DNA from: Rahnella aceris
GTDB taxonomy: Bacteria > Pseudomonadota > Gammaproteobacteria > Enterobacterales > Enterobacteriaceae
DNA length: 64,000 nt
Direction: 5' to 3'
Assembly: GCF_011684115.1 (NCBI RefSeq)
Contig: NZ_JAADJV010000003.1
Location: forward strand, 310,001 to 374,000
The translations under genes and the position numbers were made by a program. Shown piece after piece: positions 45,648 to 60,804 of this stretch. Numbering within the stretch: position 1 is the first letter of the stretch; every line of letters starts with the position of its first letter. The notes under the pieces were generated by a model. That model was not told the origin of the DNA. It searched no databases and saw only the letters and a list, made by a program, of their open reading frames with translations.

Positions 45648-46103
45648 TTAACTGCCCGGCGCCGTGTAGCCCCAGTCGATGTTGTTCTGTTTGCCGTTGA
45701 CCGTGATCTGAATAACATCACTGGCCGGAGCCGTGATTTCGTTCAGTTGCCAGCCGGACAGTGCCATCACCATTGTCGCAGTACGTCCGTTCGGCAACTG
45801 GATGTAAAACTGCACGGTTTGACGTTGTTCTGCGGCATTGATGAAAGCGGTAAAGCTGGTGTTAGAAGGGTCATCGACAAATCCGAGTGATTTTTCCGGG
45901 CCTTCCGGCAGATCAGAAATAAACTGTTTTTGTTTATCAATCAGGGTCGTACAGTCAACAAAGGAACCCGTGGCACCTGTCGCGCCGAGGGCTTTACAGT
46001 TAATCAGCGGCTGCATATCCGCTACGGCATCGCCGATCCCCCCCCACAGAACAACTGTTCCAGCGGGAAGCATTGCGTATTCCGGAGAGCTTTTATCTGC
46101 CAT
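45648..46103 (-). CDS. V: Major tail tube protein
   Basis: A 151-residue tail tube subunit of the lambda V/HK97 type (SSPEYAMLPAGTVVLWGG; GRTATMVMALSGWQLNEITAP). It lies between the gp10-like protein and G, the normal place for the tube gene. Compared with lambda gpV, the C-terminal Ig-like domain is absent, as in HK97-type tubes. Confidence 0.82.
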   Translation of the reverse strand: MADKSSPEYAMLPAGTVVLWGGIGDAVADMQPLINCKALGATGATGSFVDCTTLIDKQKQFISDLPEGPEKSLGFVDDPSNTSFTAFINAAEQRQTVQFYIQLPNGRTATMVMALSGWQLNEITAPASDVIQITVNGKQNNIDWGYTAPGS

Positions 46104-46901: not shown

Positions 46902-47235
46902 GGCTGAAATCCTCCGTACACAACACCTCAATATTCCGACGCTCCCTTGTAGGCAGGGGGGCGGTGACGATAAATACTCGTCCGCTGCCTCGTCCAACAA
47001 TTTCAATAAATCGCGTCGTAGTTGCCCGAATGTCATCCCGGTAACGCATGAAAATTTTCGTGGTGACGGAGGTTCGTTCCGCGCTGCCGCTGATGAATTC
47101 TTTACCTGATACAGAGCGAATATCAGCAGCGACAGACTCTGCGACTGAACGCCAGCCTATTGGCTGACCGTGATCATCACGCTCATCAGTTTTGACTTCT
47201 ATCCGGACGCGATGCCGGAGGCGACCAGGTTCCAT
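46891..47235 (-). CDS. Head closure / head-tail joining protein
   Basis: A 114-residue protein (MEPGRLRHRVRIEVKTDERDDHGQPIGWRSV), with the G+lrhRv.ie...d..G....w pattern of phage head-tail joining proteins (SPP1 gp16/lambda FII-like). The start at 47235 overlaps the upstream stop (TGATG). Confidence 0.85.
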   Translation of the reverse strand: MEPGRLRHRVRIEVKTDERDDHGQPIGWRSVAESVAADIRSVSGKEFISGSAERTSVTTKIFMRYRDDIRATTTRFIEIVGRGSGRVFIVTAPLPTRERRNIEVLCTEDFSRVY

Positions 47236-47561
47236 CAGGATGTTTCCTCTGTGGGCGTGGTGTTGCTCCAGTTGCGGCAATGCCACATCAGGCTTTCGGC
47301 AGCGCGGTTAACATAAAGCTGAACTTCAGTCTGACTGGTTCGATGTTCAAACATATCGCCAAACACCAGAAGCATGGCTGTTACGACCGGCGAAGGGATA
47401 TCTTCAGCAGCTTTCCATGCCGGGTCATCACACCAACGCAAGCAATGGTCCAGCGCGCTCTGGGCATAACGGGTGATAAGTGCATCACGGTCGTCACCAT
47501 CAAACTCAATGTGCTGGCGTAATTCTTCGATCGGCACAACTTCAGTGACTACAATCGCCAT
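47235..47561 (-). CDS. Head-tail connector (HK97 gp6-like)
   Basis: A 108-residue helical protein (IEFDGDDRDALITRYAQSALDHCLRW) of the gp6-like adaptor family, which forms a ring below the portal. The stop overlaps the start of the head closure gene. Confidence 0.85.
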   Translation of the reverse strand: MAIVVTEVVPIEELRQHIEFDGDDRDALITRYAQSALDHCLRWCDDPAWKAAEDIPSPVVTAMLLVFGDMFEHRTSQTEVQLYVNRAAESLMWHCRNWSNTTPTEETS

Positions 47562-47600: not shown

Positions 47601-48758
47601 TCATGAGCCAGATTCGAAAGTGCCCTTGATCAGGGCTTTTGGACGGTAGTGCGCCAGCGCCAGACGTTCTTCACACAGAATAGTCAGCATGTTTTTCACG
47701 AAGTTATCGCGGTCTTCGCGACTGACTTCGATACTTGCATCCATGCGATCCCAGACCTGCGAAGCCATATCAAAACCACCCACGGTGAAAGTACCCTGAT
47801 CCTGAGCACGCGTAGGAATGACCGGGAGCCCCCACATGACATTGCTGGTGAAGGCCTGCGGGCCACCGAAGATATAGCGCCCTTCGTTATCTTTCAGCAG
47901 TGCAATGCCGTGCCAGTCGCGCGGGTTCAAAATGATGCCGGAGGCGCTGAACTCAGACTCTGTAACCTGGAAGATGGCATGTGCAATCAGGTCGGCGCGG
48001 GTGTCTCCGGTGGCATTCAGGCTGCTGTCATAATCGGTAGCAACCAGATTGATACCTTCGAGATCGTCACCGGTTCCGTCGCCGTTGAGCAGCATGTCTT
48101 CTTCTTTCAGCGCCAGACCGTACATCAGGCGGTTGTTGACATAGGATTGCAGCATAGGGGCATCATCCATCACCTGACGTGATGCCTGGATCCAGTGTGC
48201 AACGGTTTTGACATTGGCCGTCTCTTTACTGAAGGTGATATCTGATTCGGGTTTCAGCGCCTTTTCCGCGACCGTCGCCGCATTGTTGGTGAACAGATTT
48301 TCACGGACATATTCCAGCGCATTACTGGAGATACGCCCCTGCGCCAGCAAATCACGAATAGTCAGGCGGCGCAGCCCCGGCATAATGATGCCCGGCACCT
48401 GCATTGGCTGGATCAAGGTACCGGCAGAGCCCGCATCGCTGCCCAGCGACTTATTGAAGGTTTTCGCCTCGAAATGGGACGATTTGCCATCCCAAGATTT
48501 TGTTAATTCTTCTGCAGCCCGTTCTGAGAACGATTTTTTGTTCTCTGGATTTTCGGCCCCTGAAGTGAATTTCTGTTCCATATCGAACAGACGAGAACCG
48601 GCGGTTTTCAGTTCTTCCTGAACTTTCACCAGATCATCTTGCAACTGTTTGGAAATTTTACCGGTGGCTTCAATTTCCTGTTTCTGTGCTTCAAAAAGCT
48701 GAGTCACATTCTTTTGGGACTCTTCAATGGCCTTTTGGATATCAGTTAATTCAGACAT
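47601..48758 (-). CDS. Major capsid protein, HK97 gp5 family
   Basis: 385 residues, the same length as HK97 gp5 and closely similar as I recall it. The N-terminal delta (scaffold) domain is helical (1-103). The maturation cleavage site is FNK103-SLGS. Cross-linking residues are at HK97 numbering: Lys169 (ALKP), Asn356 (FVKNML) and catalytic Glu363 (LCEERL). The head should therefore assemble on the delta domain, be cut by the adjacent protease and form isopeptide-bonded capsid chainmail. Confidence 0.95.
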   Translation of the reverse strand: MSELTDIQKAIEESQKNVTQLFEAQKQEIEATGKISKQLQDDLVKVQEELKTAGSRLFDMEQKFTSGAENPENKKSFSERAAEELTKSWDGKSSHFEAKTFNKSLGSDAGSAGTLIQPMQVPGIIMPGLRRLTIRDLLAQGRISSNALEYVRENLFTNNAATVAEKALKPESDITFSKETANVKTVAHWIQASRQVMDDAPMLQSYVNNRLMYGLALKEEDMLLNGDGTGDDLEGINLVATDYDSSLNATGDTRADLIAHAIFQVTESEFSASGIILNPRDWHGIALLKDNEGRYIFGGPQAFTSNVMWGLPVIPTRAQDQGTFTVGGFDMASQVWDRMDASIEVSREDRDNFVKNMLTILCEERLALAHYRPKALIKGTFESGS

Positions 48759-49453: not shown

Positions 49454-50722
49454 CTAAACCCCGCTGTTGGCGGGGTTCTTGTTTCCTAATTCAGTAATCG
49501 GCACGTTCTGCGATTGTCGGGTGGCAACATCGCCGCCCGGTAGCGGCGGCATGTTATCGAGCCGCCGCATTTCATTCACCGTACGCTGGCCACTGTTGAC
49601 CAGAGTTGTCATGAAGGTAGCGCGGGAAGCTGAATCTCCACGCAGCAACCCGTCCAGGTTATGTTCAGCATGAATACGCCCGATATCTGTAGGTTTGACT
49701 AACCAGCGCCAGATCGTTTGTTCCCATCGGGTTAAATAAGGCGCGAGGGTATACTGCAGAAAACCGAGGTTCTGCTGCTCGATACCGGTTCCCCAACTGG
49801 TAGATTTTTCGACATCGCCAACCAGATGCGGCGGAACACCAAAGAACCGGGCAATTTCACTGACCTGAAATTTACGGGACGCCATCGTTTCAGCGTCCTG
49901 CGGGCTGACGCCGATATCCTCAGCTTTAAAATCAGCCTCAAGGATCCAAAGTCGCTTTTTAACCGGACCACCGGCAATCTCTTTAAAATTTTCCTCTAAC
50001 TGGTCGCGCTGAACTTTGCTTAACACCTTATCGCCGGTAGACAGAATTTTCGGGGATTTCGCACCGTTGGCATAAAACTCACGCTGCTGATCCTCCATTG
50101 CCACCGCCACGCCCGCCGTTTTTGTCGCGAAGGCAATCGGAGACATGCCTACCAGCCCGTTAAACCCGAAGCCTTTAAGATGGAAAATTTCCTTCTGGTT
50201 AAAATTGGCGTACTCAGAATCCCGTTTGTAGCGGTAAACGATTTTCTTTCCTTCAAGGCGTACATCCATATTCACCGAATTCAGCGGCAGAAGGCTGATC
50301 ACATCACCTGCGCCGTTTCGTTCAACCAGCGCATAGGCATTGCCATAAAAAGCCAGTTGCATGGTCATACATTCCCGAAATTCCTGAGCGGTCATGTACT
50401 GGTTCGGCGAGTAGCGCAGAAGACGCGCCAGGGGATTATCCAGTCCCACTTTGGCACGGTTGTCGTTTTTCGTTTCGAAGACGTCCAGCGGCAAACACGA
50501 CGTTACGGTGGAAATTAACCGCACGCAGGCCCAGACAGTAGAAATTTGCAGGGCTCGTTCATCGGTGATTGATGAGTCACCTAAATGACCATGTGCCGAT
50601 ACGGGCCCAGTTTGTGAACCCTGATCCGGAGTTACCAGGCGGCCGCCGACAAACCACGATGCCATGCGCGCCCACAGACCATTATTGGTGCGAAGGTCAA
50701 TGCTATAGTTGGTTTCTGACAT
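49454..50722 (-). CDS. Portal protein, HK97 family
   Basis: A 422-residue portal subunit forming the 12-fold DNA entry ring. Typical segments are STVWACVRLISTVTSCLPLDVFE, QYMTAQEFRECMTMQLAFYGNAY, FGVPPHLVGDVEKSTSWGTGIEQQN and LAPYLTRWEQTIWRWL. The start overlaps the terminase stop (TAATG). The C-terminal tail is Gln/Asn-rich. Confidence 0.93.
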   Translation of the reverse strand: MSETNYSIDLRTNNGLWARMASWFVGGRLVTPDQGSQTGPVSAHGHLGDSSITDERALQISTVWACVRLISTVTSCLPLDVFETKNDNRAKVGLDNPLARLLRYSPNQYMTAQEFRECMTMQLAFYGNAYALVERNGAGDVISLLPLNSVNMDVRLEGKKIVYRYKRDSEYANFNQKEIFHLKGFGFNGLVGMSPIAFATKTAGVAVAMEDQQREFYANGAKSPKILSTGDKVLSKVQRDQLEENFKEIAGGPVKKRLWILEADFKAEDIGVSPQDAETMASRKFQVSEIARFFGVPPHLVGDVEKSTSWGTGIEQQNLGFLQYTLAPYLTRWEQTIWRWLVKPTDIGRIHAEHNLDGLLRGDSASRATFMTTLVNSGQRTVNEMRRLDNMPPLPGGDVATRQSQNVPITELGNKNPANSGV

Positions 50723-52458
50723 TACATGCTCATCGGTCTCGACAGAAAATCATCCAGGTTGAATTCCTCCTCAACCTCCCCATCAGCTGCACCGATTGCC
50801 ATTGCCGAAGCCACGACGCCATCGATACGACCGGTACTCTTTTTCTTTGCAAAAATACGGTTATTTTTCTGATCTGTTTCGATAACAGCAGATGCTGCAT
50901 TCCACCTCAGGCAAGGGTTCAGGTGGATTTCGATTTCTTTGTCGTCCAGTAGCCCTTCGAATAATTCAATCGAATGAGGCATCCACAAACCGGAATCGGC
51001 TGCCTTATAGAACCCCTGCCCGTGTTGGATCAATGGCACACCCACGCCAGCCTCTTCGAGCTCGGGTTCAAGGTACTTAATACGGTATTGGTCAAAGGCG
51101 ATCGCCTTTATCTGGAATTTCAACGCAAGATCAGCAATTCGCTCCGCAACAAAACCGTATTTGACGGCGTTCCCTGGCGGCGCATGAATAAAACCTTTCT
51201 TCTCCCACATGTCATAGGGCACGCGGTCAGTTTTAGCGCGGTGAAGAAGTGTGTCTTTTGGCGTCCAGAACTCCACTATCAGCCGTTTTCGATGAGGGAA
51301 ATACAGTGCAAGCGACGTTAAATCTCGGGTACCTGACAGATCCAGACCGCCGAAACATTCCTCTCCTATCATCTCATCCGGGTCAAAGTCAGATTCGCAT
51401 CCCATCCAGACATCGCTGCCCATCCACGGGTTAGCGGCATCGACCCACTGACAAAAGTTAAGGCGCCGGACAATGCTTTCTTTCGCTGGCATGCCGCGCG
51501 CTTGGGTAACCTGCTCACGAAGGTACTTTTCAGTAAATGTCTGGCCGAGCGACGGATTTGCTTTACCCCAGCAGGACTCATCTTTAAAAGGGTCATCCCC
51601 TTCATCGAGAGAGCAGATGAAACTGAAAAAGCTGTCATCTTCTTCCATCCCAGCCGCAATTTTGCGGCCGTATTCGTGGTAGTCATAACAAACGCTTGTT
51701 TTGTCATGTCCGCTGTTGGTGATCAGGAACATCAAAGCCTGACGCCGCCCCTTAGTACCGGCGCGCATCATTTCAACGACGGTATTGGTTTTATGTTCAT
51801 GTACTTCATCGATCAGCGCGCAATGCGGGCGCGGGCCTGACTGGCCGTCATCGGAACTGATCGGTTTGAAAAACGAACCGGTTTGCAGGAAAGCCAGGTT
51901 CCACACATTCAAACCGGTGCCTGACTTAACAATTCTTTGCGCCAGCGCCGGAGACTGATCGACCATCGATACGGCGTCCCGGAATAAAATCATTGCCTGG
52001 TCTTTTTTGGTGGCCGCCGCGTAGATTTCTGCGCGCGGTTCTTTATCCGCGACCAGACAATACAGGCCGACCCCGCCAGCCAGCGGCGATTTACCTGAAC
52101 CCTTCCCCGATTCGATGTAACTCATGCGAAACCGACGCGTTCCATCCTCTGCTTTCCAGCCAAACAGAGAGCCAACGATAAAAGTTTGCCAGGGTAAAAG
52201 GATGAACGGCTTCCCCTCATGTTCTCCGCCGTTGAGTTTCAGGACTTTCGCAAAAAAGGTGATTGCTCGTTCGACCGCCTCAACGTCCCAAAAAAGACCG
52301 CGGGCCGGACCATGCTCTAAATCCCTTAAATGCCGGGCGCAGGCATTACGAATATCGGGACCGGCAAGCACCTTCCCTTCGGTGACATCCCGCGCATATT
52401 TCGTTGGCGCGTCAACCGAAGAACTGGTTGAGCGGGTCGTCTTCTTCTTCTCCACCAT
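50722..52458 (-). CDS. terL: Terminase large subunit
   Basis: A 578-residue packaging ATPase/nuclease. The Walker A-like ESGKGSGKSPLAGG lies near 134-147, Walker B in CALIDEVHEHKTN, and the RNase H-type nuclease starts at FGGLDLSGTRDLTSL (Asp). It belongs to the HK97/phage P27-type large terminases. It overlaps the small subunit by about 47 bases. Confidence 0.93.
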   Translation of the reverse strand: MVEKKKTTRSTSSSVDAPTKYARDVTEGKVLAGPDIRNACARHLRDLEHGPARGLFWDVEAVERAITFFAKVLKLNGGEHEGKPFILLPWQTFIVGSLFGWKAEDGTRRFRMSYIESGKGSGKSPLAGGVGLYCLVADKEPRAEIYAAATKKDQAMILFRDAVSMVDQSPALAQRIVKSGTGLNVWNLAFLQTGSFFKPISSDDGQSGPRPHCALIDEVHEHKTNTVVEMMRAGTKGRRQALMFLITNSGHDKTSVCYDYHEYGRKIAAGMEEDDSFFSFICSLDEGDDPFKDESCWGKANPSLGQTFTEKYLREQVTQARGMPAKESIVRRLNFCQWVDAANPWMGSDVWMGCESDFDPDEMIGEECFGGLDLSGTRDLTSLALYFPHRKRLIVEFWTPKDTLLHRAKTDRVPYDMWEKKGFIHAPPGNAVKYGFVAERIADLALKFQIKAIAFDQYRIKYLEPELEEAGVGVPLIQHGQGFYKAADSGLWMPHSIELFEGLLDDKEIEIHLNPCLRWNAASAVIETDQKNNRIFAKKKSTGRIDGVVASAMAIGAADGEVEEEFNLDDFLSRPMSM

Positions 52459-52879
52459 TCACTTGCACCTTTGTACGGGCGGCAGGCGTCAGGCCGAATT
52501 CCACCAGATAACTTTTAAAACGACGATCGGCATCCGCCAGCATTGAAACCGCCGGATTGGCCTTGATCAGGAAATCACCCATTTGGGTCTTCGTTGTGTA
52601 GGTACGCCCTTCGATATCGATGAGTTGCCGCAAATGCAGGATTTCGGCATACAGATCACAAAGCCGCTCAAGGGCCATTGTGTCTGCAACAGTGAGGATA
52701 CCCATTCCATCAAGCAGAACGGTTAATCGGCCCCAGGCGGTTTTCCCCCAATCCGTCAGATGAGACGGCGGACTCGGGATTTCGCGGGCGGGTTTGGGTT
52801 CTTTGTCATTCAGTTTTCGTTTGCCCGGATTACCGGTAACCAATTTTAATTTGGTCGGTTTCGGGCGACGACCGGCCAT
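52412..52879 (-). CDS. terS: Terminase small subunit, P27 family
   Basis: A 155-residue protein that recognises the packaging site (MAGRRPKPTKLKLVTGNPGKRKLN at the N-terminus, EPKPAREIPSPPSHL), typical of the P27-type small terminases. The helical core is followed by an acidic tail. The cos/pac site is expected nearby, perhaps in the 200-bp gap to HNH (52880-53080), which I cannot identify directly. Confidence 0.9.
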   Translation of the reverse strand: MAGRRPKPTKLKLVTGNPGKRKLNDKEPKPAREIPSPPSHLTDWGKTAWGRLTVLLDGMGILTVADTMALERLCDLYAEILHLRQLIDIEGRTYTTKTQMGDFLIKANPAVSMLADADRRFKSYLVEFGLTPAARTKVQVNGGEEEDDPLNQFFG

Positions 52880-53080: not shown

Positions 53081-53440
53081 TCAGGCGGCGTGCCAGTGCG
53101 AGTTCGGGTCGATCGGCAGGCCGTTCTCATCGCAGCCTGAGATGCGCCCGCTCTTCTCCATACGTTGCTTTGTGGAGTCGTGATGCACCTTGCACAGCGG
53201 TTGCCAGTTCTTCCTGTCCCAGAACAGCTTCTGAGCTGTCTTAATGCTGGCAACATTGCCAGAGAGCAATGCCTCTTTAAGTTTGTGGGCAACGATATGG
53301 TCAACCACACTGGCGGCCACGGTCCGCCCCTGCTCCTGACACATCACACACAGCGGGTTATCATTCAGGAAGTCGAGGCGGGCTCTGTTCCACTTGCTGC
53401 CGTATACCCGAGGTTCTTTCTTCTGCATCAGCTGTTCCAA
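53081..53440 (-). CDS. HNH endonuclease associated with terminase
   Basis: A 119-residue HNH nuclease with the zinc site CVMCQ ... PLCKVHH and the DHI core in VVDHIVAHK. In HK97-like phages the HNH protein beside terS is part of the cos-cleavage/packaging machinery. It overlaps the glycosyltransferase-like gene by 13 bases. Confidence 0.9.
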   Translation of the reverse strand: MEQLMQKKEPRVYGSKWNRARLDFLNDNPLCVMCQEQGRTVAASVVDHIVAHKLKEALLSGNVASIKTAQKLFWDRKNWQPLCKVHHDSTKQRMEKSGRISGCDENGLPIDPNSHWHAA

Positions 53441-54039
53441 GCGGGAAATAAAGTCAGTCGCCAGGCTCGGCGGCGTTCGTTTCTTGGCTGGTTGTCGGGA
53501 TGCCGTTCAACTGTCTCGCCATCGGCATGATCTACCAGCGAGTAACAGGGGTAGATAACCTTTCCTCCCAACGCGTCACCGACGGCATAGTCAGCCGCCT
53601 TGGTTCGGTTCCAGTTCTGCATGATGCGGCTTAGTCCGCTAACTGGCGGGCTGTAGCACACTCCATGTATTAGCCTGTCCATCGTGATGTGGGCAGCTCG
53701 GCGTCTATCGGCATCAATCAGGCTGGCTGCGATATGCTGCTGGTACTGCGGAGGACGCCCAGTACCCAGATAGAAACTGATGAGATTATCGGGAAACTTG
53801 GCCAACCACTCATTCACTCCTTGGGTAAAGTCCGGTAATGGCAGAGCATCATCCTCAAGTATTACCACGCGACAGTCCTGATGTCTGGCCCACTCAATAG
53901 CGCGTCTGTGATTCCAGTTCGCGCCGTGATCTTCTTCATCGATCAACAGGTGCGCGGACAACATGTCAGCGAGGCGAGTCGCCATGTCTCGGCGCTTATG
54001 GTGCCCTACAACGCAGAAGGTCACTTGTGCCGATACCAT
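53428..54039 (-). CDS. Phage glycosyltransferase-like protein (GT25-like)
   Basis: 203 residues, soluble. The segment DCRVVILEDDALPLPDFTQGV (about 57-77) has the acidic EDD motif of GT-A glycosyltransferases such as family 25, and CVVGHHKRRDMATRL opens a Rossmann-like fold. The acceptor is unknown. It overlaps the bifunctional glycosyltransferase by 19 bases upstream and HNH by 13 bases downstream, so it is translated with the packaging genes. It has no membrane helices, which argues against gtr-type O-antigen conversion. Confidence 0.65.
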   Translation of the reverse strand: MVSAQVTFCVVGHHKRRDMATRLADMLSAHLLIDEEDHGANWNHRRAIEWARHQDCRVVILEDDALPLPDFTQGVNEWLAKFPDNLISFYLGTGRPPQYQQHIAASLIDADRRRAAHITMDRLIHGVCYSPPVSGLSRIMQNWNRTKAADYAVGDALGGKVIYPCYSLVDHADGETVERHPDNQPRNERRRAWRLTLFPAWNS

Positions 54040-55475
54040 GCGAACTCCTTACCGATGCCGTCAGATTTAAAAATGGTGTGGACCTTGGGCCCAGTTACTA
54101 CTCGATCACCGAATGACTTCGCCACGATGCCAAAGGCACCCATATCAAACTGAGTCACTGGAGTCTTGCCCTTATCCCAGAACCGGTGGCTTTCGCTGAG
54201 GTAATGAAGCCGGACTATCTGGTGTGCAAAATCCATTACATCCGCACGACAGCCACCGAGCAGGCCAGCATTAAGCAGCGGGCTGTTTCGGTGTTCGCTC
54301 AGGAAGTCAGCGTAAGCTTTGCCGTGATGGTTCTGCAGCATCCACTGATCCGCGTATGTCTTAGGCTCTGATCCGACATATATCTTGCCGGGTTCCATCT
54401 CTTCCCACGGTTCGTGCAACATCTCAACGTCAGTGCCGTCGGTACACCACACGAAGCGGTATTCAGGGTGAACTCTGAGATACTGGTAGAGGTGCAGCCA
54501 GCGAGCGAAGTAAGGACTCATTTGCAAAGCTGGAACTGAAACGAGTGCCGCGCCCGCGGGTGCATTGCTGAGTTGGTCAGCCAGCACAACAGCATCCGCG
54601 CCGCGGATTGACGATGCCCACGTGCTGAGCAGAGATGCATCCGGCCTAATCACGGCACCGCGCTGAGGATCCGGCTGACCGGTCAGCAATGAAGTGATCA
54701 CCACATCACGCTGGCGCCGGAATTCCGCATAACCGGCATAACCTGAATCACGCCGGGCATTGAAGATGGTTACGTTATTGCGAACCAATGCCTCACGGTC
54801 AGACCTAGCGACAGAACGTTCAACCGCTTCATGTTCGTCCAGTGAATAAATGAGGGCTTTTGAACCAGCCACGTCAGCATTTGCCCACGTCGTCAGGCCA
54901 GCGTTATGAATGCGCTGCGCCAAATCGGGATGTTCATACATACCGCGCCCATAAACCGGGTCAAAGCCGCCTACCTTTTCAATCGCGCTGCGGTGGTAAT
55001 AAAGCATCACGCCGCGCTGGCCGGTGTAAGCGACATGCAGGTCGTCGCGATATAGCACAGCCATATCGTTCAGCTTCTTCGCGCCTGCGAGATCAAGGAA
55101 TTGGTAAGCCAGATGAGGCTCAGGCGATTCAATATATGGGACATGCCAGTTATCGCTGATCGGATAGGCATCATCGTCCCACAGGAACAAGTGCTCACAG
55201 CCAGCATCGATCAGCGCCTCGAGGCTCCGGTTCTTCGAAGCCACGATCCCGAGCGATTTCTCATGCCGGATTATTTCGATACCGGCGGCTGTTGCTGCTG
55301 GCGCTGAACCATCATCAATCACGATTAATTTAGCGCCAGCCGGTAGATATTTCAGATGCTGTTCAATTGTCTTTGCCAGAACAGCAGGCCGGTTGTGTGT
55401 CGTGATGGCGATTCCAATCCGAGCGCCAGAATTGCACGCAGGCGCATACGGGACACCATCGATAGTGACCTGCAT
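54021..55475 (-). CDS. Two-domain phage glycosyltransferase (GT2-type N-terminus plus second GT-like domain)
   Basis: 484 residues, soluble. The N-terminal GT2/GT-A domain shows ITTHNRPAVLAKTIEQHL (about 27-44), VIDDGSAPA and LFLWDDDAYPI (the metal-binding DDD). The C-terminal domain (about 310-484) looks like another GT-A domain: RFVWCTDGTDVEML (DxD-like) and NSPLLNAGLLGGCRADV, the pattern of galactosyl/hexosyl transferases. So two transferase centres may be fused. The gene starts the cassette that reaches HNH and terminase and follows a terminator. The target could be DNA, virion protein or host surface. Confidence 0.72.
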   Translation of the reverse strand: MQVTIDGVPYAPACNSGARIGIAITTHNRPAVLAKTIEQHLKYLPAGAKLIVIDDGSAPAATAAGIEIIRHEKSLGIVASKNRSLEALIDAGCEHLFLWDDDAYPISDNWHVPYIESPEPHLAYQFLDLAGAKKLNDMAVLYRDDLHVAYTGQRGVMLYYHRSAIEKVGGFDPVYGRGMYEHPDLAQRIHNAGLTTWANADVAGSKALIYSLDEHEAVERSVARSDREALVRNNVTIFNARRDSGYAGYAEFRRQRDVVITSLLTGQPDPQRGAVIRPDASLLSTWASSIRGADAVVLADQLSNAPAGAALVSVPALQMSPYFARWLHLYQYLRVHPEYRFVWCTDGTDVEMLHEPWEEMEPGKIYVGSEPKTYADQWMLQNHHGKAYADFLSEHRNSPLLNAGLLGGCRADVMDFAHQIVRLHYLSESHRFWDKGKTPVTQFDMGAFGIVAKSFGDRVVTGPKVHTIFKSDGIGKEFAWYRHK

Positions 55476-55508: not shown

Positions 55509-55528
55509 AACCGCCTAAAAAGGCGGTT
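55509..55528 (-). terminator. Intrinsic terminator before the glycosyltransferase cassette
   Basis: An 8-bp stem AACCGCCT / AGGCGGTT with an AAAA loop, weak T tract (TTTCTTT) on the minus strand. Confidence 0.65.
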
Positions 55529-55544
55529 ATAGGGATTGTATTTC

Positions 55545-55763
55545 TTACTTAAGCGATTCTTGGATTGCATCTGCTAAGTTTTTGATTTGATCTGCTGCAT
55601 TCTCCAAATCAAATTTCATTTTGTGTGCTGCAGTTGAACTCGTAGGGGAGGAAGCGCTAGCTTTTGCAATTTCAAGTGCTGCTTGTACAGCTAGCAAACG
55701 TTGAGATTTAGTTATGGCCTCTTCTACGCTCTTGCTTGTGTCGTTAAAATAACCTTCTAACAT
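55545..55763 (-). CDS. Small helical phage protein, uncharacterised
   Basis: A 72-residue, mainly helical protein (EEAITKSQRLLAVQAALEIAKASA; FDLENAADQIKNLADAIQESL), without a signal peptide or Cys. AAAGGAG stands before its ATG. It is closed by its own terminator, an accessory gene between the lysis cassette and glycosyltransferases. Confidence 0.6.
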   Translation of the reverse strand: MLEGYFNDTSKSVEEAITKSQRLLAVQAALEIAKASASSPTSSTAAHKMKFDLENAADQIKNLADAIQESLK

Positions 55764-55920: not shown

Positions 55921-56169
55921 TCAGTCTTCTTCGTATTCGTCATCACCTTCAACCACATCTCGAGGCACTTCGATTGTTTCACCAATTTCCCATCCTTTAG
56001 AATTTAAAATTTCTGAAGGAGTCGACTCAGGAACTTCGAAATAGTAGTTATATATAGTGTCACCAGAGTTACCTGTATTCTCGTTCAGGTCTTCTAACCC
56101 CAGTGGTATTTGTTCTAATTGCTCGTCAGTTAAATCCAAAAACGTTGCTAACTCTGAAGTTTTCATCAT
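55921..56169 (-). CDS. Small acidic phage protein, uncharacterised
   Basis: An 82-residue, strongly acidic protein ending in EGDDEYEED. Its N-terminal segment TSELATFLDLTDEQLEQIPLGLEDLNEN looks helical. GGAG precedes the start. It has no recognisable family. The charge could suggest a DNA-mimic or anti-restriction protein, but that is speculation. Confidence 0.5.
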   Translation of the reverse strand: MMKTSELATFLDLTDEQLEQIPLGLEDLNENTGNSGDTIYNYYFEVPESTPSEILNSKGWEIGETIEVPRDVVEGDDEYEED

Positions 56170-56432: not shown

Positions 56433-56476
56433 TTTGTGCTCTATTGTTAGATGACAATGCCAATAGAGTAGAAAAG

Positions 56477-56770
56477 ATGGAATGGAAAGTTGTGGATGGA
56501 ATCTTTCTAACGCCTGATAACCTGCAAATATTAAAAGTTACGGCGGAGGGGGATTTAAAGTTCTTGATATGGATTAAGTCTAACCTTGAAGTCCCCTTAA
56601 ACTGCATGCTTACGCCTGTCATCGACGGATATATAGCCAACCATGACAAGGGCCATTTTGTCGCGATTCAGAAAGCGGTGCCATACAGCCTGAGCGAGTG
56701 GGAGGCTGTAAAAATGGCGCAACATCCATCCCATTCAGTTCATATTGATGGGGTTAACTTAGGCCATTAA
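56477..56770 (+). CDS. Uncharacterised plus-strand gene between intact and relic Rz
   Basis: A 97-residue soluble protein (MEWKVVDGIFLTPDNLQILKV, PVIDGYIANHDKGHFVAIQKAVPYSLSEWEAVK). It is opposite in direction to the lysis operon and convergent with Rz, overlapping its stop by four bases. It lies exactly between the two Rz 3' ends and so was probably brought in by recombination. No clear ribosome site is present, and the function is unknown. Confidence 0.5.
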   Translation: MEWKVVDGIFLTPDNLQILKVTAEGDLKFLIWIKSNLEVPLNCMLTPVIDGYIANHDKGHFVAIQKAVPYSLSEWEAVKMAQHPSHSVHIDGVNLGH

Positions 56771-59701: not shown

Positions 59702-60024
59702 TGTGCTTTCTCATCCACACAGCCTGAAAGGCAAATTTGGCTGTTGCAGTGCCGGGTGCCTCCCGGTGAACCGTTGGTAAGCTAACCGTGGTTCGCTGTC
59801 TTCACTTCGAGGGGATTAGCTTATTAGCCCTACCGCATAGGTAAGATTCACCGCAACGTCATAAACGTATCATATGCCTATAAAAGACAAAACCCCGCTG
59901 GAGCGAGGTTCTGAGATTGTCTAAGCTTTGTGACTACGTGACCACTCTTAACACATTACATGATAAAATGCGGACCGCAAAAGCTTTTTTTAACTTTCAC
60001 TCCATAACGTAAAAGAGGTTGAAT
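59702..60024. other. Structured intergenic segment with leftward terminator
   Basis: No ORF is supported in 320 bp. The stretch 59740-59870 folds readily: CCGGG-TGCCT-CCCGG, and GGTAAGCTAACC-type arms just after. The minus-strand terminator at 59888-59910 follows. A structured RNA is possible (see findings). Confidence 0.5.
59888..59910 (-). terminator. Leftward terminator downstream of Q region
   Basis: On the minus strand AACCTCGC / GCGGGGTT (one G-U) around TCCA, then TTTTG. Candidate early stop for the late promoter transcript. Confidence 0.75.
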
Positions 60025-60804
60025 ATGTTCTTTGTGAAAAGTTGCCATCAAGAATTTAATATTAAAAAAAGCAAAACATTGAAGATTGGCACTCTAGAGG
60101 AATATAGGGAAACTGAACAAGCTCAAATAGCAGATCTTTATGAAGGTACTTTTAGCTTAGAGATATCACTTTCTGAAGTACACATTGAATTTGATATATT
60201 TAATGCATTAAATTTCAGTCACAATAGTGAAGTGAACGTAGTGATGGATGAGCTCCATATATCTTGTAGAAGTCCATTATTTGAAAAATGTTTATTTTTA
60301 AAAAAATACCAATCAGTGGCTACCTTCAAAAATAATAATCGCTTTGCCTTTTGCATATCCAAACTTGAATCTCACGAAGATTGTGAAGGTATTTTCAAGG
60401 ATTACAATGACTATTGGTACTTCAGAGCTGATTTATCGCCCTTGATGGCAAGTGAAATTAGTAAATCTCTGTTTAAAAGCATTGAAGATTTGACAAAAAA
60501 AGGTAGCCAGGTCTTTCGAGAGTCGTATGATATTAATAAGTTAAGGCTAGCGTTTAAGGTGCAATCAATTAGCTACCGAGATAGAAGGACCTTGATAAAC
60601 AACAATTATTTTTACAAGTACAAGCATGATTTAAGCAGCATGCTTGATGGATTATTGTTTTTAAAGCCCGAATCCTTTAGAAAAGAAAATGAAATTAGAT
60701 TTCTCTTTGACTTCTATGAAGGTGACAGACTACTTCACCCAAAAATAAATAGTTTAATAATTAACGCATCTGACAACATGCTTGCAATAACGCATGGGAA
60801 ATAA
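60025..60804 (+). CDS. AT-rich moron candidate, uncharacterised 259-residue protein
   Basis: A 259-residue soluble protein on the strand opposite to the late operon and far more AT-rich than its neighbours. MFFVKSCHQEFNIKKSKTLK opens it. The segment KIGTLEEYRETEQAQIADLYEG is vaguely like DUF2971-type proteins (G-x-x-x-x-YR-x-x-E ... D-x-x-EG), but I cannot confirm it. The ATG at 60025 follows GAGG by six bases, and the in-frame TTG at 60019 is less likely. Position and base composition suggest a lysogen-expressed phage-defence or fitness gene. Confidence 0.65.
   Translation: MFFVKSCHQEFNIKKSKTLKIGTLEEYRETEQAQIADLYEGTFSLEISLSEVHIEFDIFNALNFSHNSEVNVVMDELHISCRSPLFEKCLFLKKYQSVATFKNNNRFAFCISKLESHEDCEGIFKDYNDYWYFRADLSPLMASEISKSLFKSIEDLTKKGSQVFRESYDINKLRLAFKVQSISYRDRRTLINNNYFYKYKHDLSSMLDGLLFLKPESFRKENEIRFLFDFYEGDRLLHPKINSLIINASDNMLAITHGK

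Follow-up and report, generated by a model that had tools for sequence, protein, structure and literature searches.

What do the two glycosyltransferases of a lambda/HK97-type prophage in Rahnella aceris modify? The question is raised by a stretch of 64,000 nucleotides (assembly GCF_011684115.1, contig NZ_JAADJV010000003.1, positions 310,001 to 374,000; hereafter the window), in which two overlapping genes on the minus strand encode a 484-residue glycosyltransferase (GT484, 54021-55475) and a 203-residue enzyme (GT203, 53428-54039). The original prediction, made from the letters of the window, held that this cassette glycosylates virion proteins or packaged DNA, and called its function undescribed. 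The virion-protein part of this prediction has strong support: homology links the cassette to mycobacteriophage enzymes, and capsid and tail-tube proteins bear C-terminal tags that track the cassette. We propose, with a probability of roughly 0.8, that the cassette is a virion-glycosylation system in which GT203 would start a glycan at the C-terminal Ser tag of the capsid and tail-tube proteins and GT484 would extend it. The genes, their homology, pairing and position, the tags, and the coupling of tags to cassette are read from the sequence itself.

The two enzymes and their pairing

The open reading frames (ORFs) of GT484 and GT203 overlap, as had been predicted; the overlap is 19 nt. GT484 matched PHROG 1579 from end to end (E 3e-223). 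The predicted GT2 domain was found in its N-terminal half, where residues 22-108 matched PF00535 with 26.7 bits (cut-off 23.3); all 24 aligned homologues also matched this family. The claim of a third glycosyltransferase domain, in the C-terminal half of GT484, did not fare as well. No Pfam family was found in this half at E<=0.01, and it showed no profile similarity to GT203, to the N-terminal half, or to gp108 or gp109 of mycobacteriophage Che8. The half is strongly conserved, with invariant residues in the motifs WCxDGxDV and NAGxxGG; this invariance would be compatible with a second transferase domain, although it proves nothing. Eight of the 24 homologues weakly matched PF20691, the TET-associated glycosyltransferases (best E 0.0021). 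GT484 gave no pairwise match to Che8 gp108 or gp109, and its N-terminal half was only weakly linked to the gp108 family (PHROG 8858). The identity to the enzyme of Mattes, an F1-type phage, was 45-46%. Among the matches listed in a scan of named genomes, which may omit entries for this genome and its nearest kin, the closest GT484 was that of Rahnella sp. AA (81%).

The GT25-like nature of GT203 stands in a qualified form. GT203 itself showed no Pfam GT25 match, whereas 6 of 21 aligned homologues matched PF01755 (GT25; best E 8.5e-8), and GT203 matched PHROG 854, annotated as glucosyltransferase, with E 3e-70. In the alignment D63, D64 and A65 are invariant and E62 is nearly so. By sequence comparison GT203 thus classifies as a distant GT25-like enzyme of PHROG 854. 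It shares 34% identity over 195 aa with Che8 gp110 (E 8e-25) and 27% with Firecracker gp36 (E 2e-12), which by its size and its place in the gene order corresponds to Corndog gp38. PDB sequence searches gave no match in one round, and best E values of 0.82 and 0.056 in another.

Among 50,697 phage records, GT484 matched 583 and GT203 matched 690. Most were mycobacteriophages; the others include HK97-like enterobacterial phages, Klebsiella jumbo phages and Gordonia phages. Records of HK97-like phages annotate these genes as hypothetical proteins or as glycosyltransferases. Both genes lay side by side in 80/80 viral loci anchored on GT203 (the best 80 of 562), in 80/80 loci found with the Mattes enzyme (the best 80 of 101), and in 30 of 32 genome loci anchored on GT484, the remaining two containing GT484 fragments. 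PHROG 854 matched 16 of 98 genomes, the own genome included, at E<=1e-3, and 8 of them at E<=1e-50. Since Che8 carries a GT203 relative together with two other accessory enzymes, and phage HK633 carries GT203 without GT484, GT203 is the constant member.

HK633 (L008:5025-5591) keeps GT203, lacks GT484 and has a tail protein of the immunoglobulin (Ig) type; this is perhaps a decaying cassette. In mEp390 (L002:13499-14011) an extra HNH-type gene lies between the two transferases.

C-terminal tags accompany the cassette

The major capsid protein of the window is of the HK97 gp5 type (PF05065; 47601-48758, minus strand) and ends in FESGS (47604-47618). The major tail (tube) protein has 151 aa (45648-46103, minus strand), consists of a tube domain only (PF16463), with no Ig domain found, and ends in TAPGS (45651-45665). 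Both ends are proposed acceptors. Similar capsid and tail ends were found in Che8 (NKTGS and YSDGS), HK542 (SSGS and HASGS) and CharmingMan (GAGS and TAAGS). We defined the tag as a C-terminal [GTN][ST]; it is mostly -GS, sometimes -TS or -NS. Other structural genes ending in -GS amounted to 2/81 in seven annotated sets (the window and six phages), and both encode the same head-tail adaptor.

The comparison was extended to 217 loci with an identified tail protein, from which 16 loci that could not be typed for the cassette, 7 with a single enzyme or truncated by the locus edge, and 2 with GT203 only were excluded. Unique capsids were tagged in 77 of 79 cassette-plus and 4 of 46 cassette-minus cases (p 4e-26), and unique tail proteins were short and tagged in 72 of 75 and 2 of 46 (Fisher p 7e-27), where kinship among the sequences inflates both p-values. 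The remaining tail proteins, 3 cassette-plus and 44 cassette-minus, have the long form. Pfam detected Ig domains in 3/3 long forms tested and in 0/2 short forms. When the 7 and 2 excluded loci were counted as cassette-plus, the values were 73/79 versus 2/46 for tail proteins and 80/82 versus 4/46 for capsids. Since the capsid counts cover loci with an identified tail protein, HK022, HK140, mEpX2 and L168, which are cassette-minus with a tagged capsid, are excluded; their capsids are 100% identical to that of HK97, so that they would add no new unique sequence. At least one tag was present in 93 of 94 unique cassette-plus capsid/tail pairs, and the rarer -TS and -NS ends tend to occur together on both proteins of one phage (81/1/4/4, p 1.3e-4).

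Among other unique genes of the typed loci, -GS ends were found in 29/1779 cassette-plus and 3/790 cassette-minus cases; 18 of these 29 genes share the -EEGS ending of the adaptor, and 5 resemble capsid fusions not recognised by the profile. The cassette-minus loci were obtained largely by a search with the Ig-bearing HK97 tail protein, and the cassette-plus loci by enzyme-anchored searches. A capsid-anchored subset (the best 80 of 242), chosen blind to the enzymes, is free of this choice of anchor; tags were found on 37/37 cassette-plus and 4/9 cassette-minus capsids and on 36/37 and 2/8 tail proteins, the minus side being small.

Shared ancestry was addressed with single-linkage capsid clusters (90% identity, last 8 residues omitted). 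In one cluster (n=27) the tag was present in 10/11 cassette-plus and 0/16 cassette-minus capsids. The HK97 cluster (n=44) gave 39/39 and 3/5, and a cluster of ten gave 0/1 and 0/9. Branch-disjoint tree pairs showed six concordant, no discordant and six contrast-free cases for the capsid (n=12; sign test p 0.016), and six, none and five for the tail protein (n=11; sign test p 0.016). The clearest contrast is that of two tube domains 99.3% identical over 140 aa, which end in IDPGS when the cassette is present and continue into the long form when it is absent. Capsids of HK542 and of the HK446 type share 99% identity and end in -SSGS with the cassette and in -FSAD without it.

Tags were also found on unrelated virion proteins. 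In 27 cassette-plus loci with head and tail genes unmatched by our queries, an ending in -GS, -TS or -NS was seen in 33 of 589 ORFs. Ten of these, picked by size and position, were compared with PHROGs, and each proved to be a capsid or capsid-protease, tail or decoration protein (PHROG 617, 247, 133, 158, 584, 41, 1407 and 122). A second batch added three tagged capsid or tail proteins, two tagged ORFs of unassigned function (L015, L035) and a tail protein ending in -PSS (L010). In Erwinia typographi (L037) the -GS ending is shared by a capsid fusion, a decoration protein of the lambda D type and a tail protein of the lambda V type with 161 aa. The Firecracker capsid ends in -LVGS. In the Che8 capsid family, prophiGD57-2, which has PHROG 854, ends its capsid and tail proteins in -AGS, whereas Dubu and AGM1, which lack PHROG 854, have both proteins untagged (-VTA/-PGV and -TAV/-AGV). 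In a Klebsiella jumbo phage, 2 of 329 called ORFs of at least 90 aa end in -GS, namely a virion structural protein (PHROG 2935) and one without a family; T4-type capsid and tube profiles gave no match there, with the controls silent too.

Two loci of this kind show further details. The E. typographi locus (L037:16427-20788) has the build of a lambda-like prophage, and its -GS tail protein has no Ig part. In Gordonia phage Phendrix (L209:573-4389) four consecutive genes, from the capsid gene gp74 to gp77, end in -GS right before two transferases.

Relation to virion glycosylation in mycobacteriophages

Glycosylation of mycobacteriophage virions was reportedly described by Freeman et al. 2023, the source cited by the first three PMC papers named below, for Che8 gp108-gp110 and Corndog gp36-gp38. 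The function is thus already described for mycobacteriophages, and "undescribed" was too strong a word in the original prediction. Excerpts of the PMC papers state that capsid glycosylation depends on two essential glycosyltransferases, Che8 gp110 and Corndog gp38 (PMC12363180), report glycans on the major capsid proteins of Che8 and Rita (PMC11256854), and place mycobacteriophage glycans at the C-terminal ends of the capsid and tail-tube proteins (PMC12619734); a glycan modification of the Corndog capsid had already been suggested in a passage from 2015 (PMC4351075).

Several features are shared with these systems. GT203 belongs to the gp110/gp38 family, the cassette and the enzyme genes of Che8 and Mattes alike neighbour HNH and terminase genes, both the window and Che8 have a capsid and a tail protein with -GS ends, and Mattes has the same pair of GT484 and GT203. 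The window differs from Che8 and Corndog in that it holds a lambda/HK97-type prophage from another host group with other capsid and tail families. The accessory enzymes gp108 and gp109 of Che8 are not matched, and GT484 is not detectably related to gp109. For Che8 and Corndog glycosylation of virions has been reported, whereas for the window it is predicted from sequence. In the titles and abstracts searched, which cover few subscription journals, nothing was found on virion glycosylation in HK97-like phages, on a C-terminal -GS tag or on a trade-off with the tail Ig domain. What would be new is the coupling of tag and cassette and the extension to HK97-like phages.

Proposed mechanism and alternative explanations

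In the scheme that we propose, the enzyme activities, the acceptor residue, the sugar, the order of the steps, the late expression and the purpose of the coat are what we infer. GT203 would recognise the C-terminal -GS (-TS, -NS) tag on freshly synthesised major capsid and tail-tube proteins and attach the first sugar, O-linked, to the terminal Ser. GT203 is the likely initiator at this residue because the constant enzyme accompanies the constant tag, and the variable partners (GT484 here; gp108 and gp109 in Che8) are likely extenders. GT484 would lengthen the glycan by one sugar, or by two if its C-terminal half is a second transferase. Because of their gene position the enzyme genes would be read with the late operon, so that the enzymes would be present while heads and tails are built. 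Through the many copies of the capsid and tube proteins, the particle would then acquire a glycan coat. On the tail, the glycan may stand in for the C-terminal Ig domain of cassette-minus relatives; as that domain occupies the same terminus, one decoration of the tube protein would be exchanged for another.

We also consider it fairly probable that the -GS tag is a portable signal. PHROG 854 enzymes would then glycosylate the terminal Ser of any tagged capsid, decoration or tube protein, in unrelated proteins and in phages whose hosts are Gram-negative or actinobacterial, the tube Ig domain and the glycan would be alternative coats, and HK542 and mEp390 would be glycosylated particles.

Several facts weigh against virion glycosylation at the tags. 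About half of the independent tree pairs show no contrast. HK97, HK544, HK75, HK022, HK140 and mEpX2 lack the enzymes and yet have an -SSGS capsid; the capsid proteins of HK97 (gp5) and HK542 are identical, although HK97 is cassette-minus and HK542 cassette-plus. Loci L177 and L135 carry tags on both proteins and no cassette, and L358 carries the cassette and no tag. An Ig-type tail protein and a tagged capsid occur together with the enzymes in L300 and L310, and also in L326, L339 and L341, where GT484 is presumably cut at the locus edge. Enzymes without any tagged virion protein were found in L017, L026, L072, L059, L064 and L033, some of which are short or without head genes. The annotated major tail protein of Phendrix is untagged, and the Firecracker tail protein ends in -KGDS, outside the tag pattern. 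In Fraca the tail protein is tagged and the capsid is not. To our knowledge, no glycan measurement exists for any GT484-bearing phage. A passage of PMC12894461 describes a gel stain of ten phages, including E. coli phage JEP7, that revealed no glycoprotein; these phages may or may not carry such enzymes.

The contrast-free pairs and the HK97-like phages that retain the capsid tag without enzymes would be expected if the tags are not acceptors, that is, if cassette and tails travel together in one late operon, or if -GS has a role in assembly, with some other virion or host protein as the substrate of the enzymes. The head-tail adaptor, which often ends in -EEGS too, points the same way. We judge this improbable. 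The tag switches with the cassette among close relatives, as in the tube domains and the cluster of 27 capsids described above, tags are found again in capsid, tail and decoration families that are unrelated, and mycobacteriophage glycans have been reported at exactly these C-termini. The independent switches and the unrelated families weaken such an explanation; since the sign tests are modest, it retains some weight.

Glycosylation of hydroxymethylated bases in packaged DNA, the other part of the original prediction, seems very improbable. The enzymes resemble phage DNA glycosyltransferases (the T4 type and TET-associated enzymes) in being phage-borne and in the weak PF20691 matches, and the cassette lies beside packaging genes; support beyond those matches was not found. 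No base-hydroxymethylating enzyme was seen among the ten early ORFs scanned, which include an MT-A70 methyltransferase, and the own genome gave no Tet/JBP match, a weak result because the control was silent too. The virion proteins are tagged, and DNA glycosylation leaves these tags unexplained. We rejected it as the main explanation on the grounds of the missing source of hydroxymethylated bases in the ORFs scanned and of the tags. Least probable of all would be serotype conversion or superinfection exclusion by modification of host lipopolysaccharide or cell wall. Surface glycans are frequent substrates of GT2 and GT25 enzymes, and the GtrABC system for O-antigen glucosylation of Shigella and Salmonella phages likewise includes a phage-borne GT2-family enzyme. 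For Tweety, exclusion or DNA modification has been raised for a glycosyltransferase in a matching place (excerpt of PMC2884959). Unlike GtrABC, the window holds its enzymes at a late packaging position, its second enzyme is GT25-like, and no flippase or GtrA-like protein was seen among the neighbouring ORFs and the part of the prophage ORFs that was scanned, in agreement with the original prediction. Phage ENT47670 has an annotated gtrABC-type set on top of the cassette. O-antigen conversion was rejected as the main explanation because no flippase was seen, because of the late position, and because lipopolysaccharide modification does not explain the tags.

Genetic context of the cassette

The window contains the greater part of the prophage, which is read on the minus strand; the integrase, the repressor and early genes follow just past the window end. 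The source genome has 5.23 Mb. The cassette is placed between the lysis genes (Rz, lysozyme) and the HNH-terminase genes, with portal, protease, capsid and tail genes downstream. As predicted, it runs into the packaging genes. GT203 shares 13 nt with the HNH endonuclease gene (53081-53440, minus strand, TTG start), which is followed, after a gap of about 200 nt, by the small terminase gene (52412-52879, minus strand) and then by the large one (50722-52458, minus strand). In Mattes and Che8 the enzyme genes, next to HNH, are found at the right end of the genome; once the genome is circular they, too, are upstream of terminase. Of the terminator that had been predicted in front of the cassette, the hairpin is present (55509-55528, minus strand, upstream of GT484), whereas such hits are no commoner in the window than chance (7 found versus 6.7 expected); promoter matches are likewise at chance level.

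Just upstream of the cassette lie two small conserved genes (55545-55763 and 55921-56169, minus strand; PHROG 5901 and 31861). A PmrD-like gene (56444-56770, plus strand; Pfam PmrD 27.4 bits, cut-off 21.2) lies between the cassette and Rz and is read from the other strand. An AT-rich ORF of 261 aa (60019-60804, plus strand; surroundings with about 37% G+C; weak match to a PHROG, E 1.3e-4) is probably a cargo gene. The MT-A70-type methyltransferase gene is located among the prophage early genes (L401:1224-2000, minus strand). The head-tail adaptor gene (47235-47561, minus strand), which comes after the capsid gene, ends in -EETS in the window and in -EEGS in HK97, HK542 and many cassette-plus loci. 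The adaptor is possibly a third acceptor, or its ending is a chance inheritance, since HK97 has -EEGS without the enzymes.

Implications

Reported glycosylated particles are those of a few mycobacteriophages; the prediction made here concerns many enterobacterial phages and names the acceptor site. HK97 and HK542, with identical capsid proteins without and with the cassette, form a natural test pair. If the prediction is true, sugar-coated virions could be read from sequence, the glycan and the Ig domain would be alternative tail coats, and the finding would matter for the encounters of phages with antibodies, mucus and cell surfaces. As a tool, a short C-terminal tag for the glycosylation of proteins might be of use as well. 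The coating known from viruses of mycobacteria may be common in the relatives of HK97.

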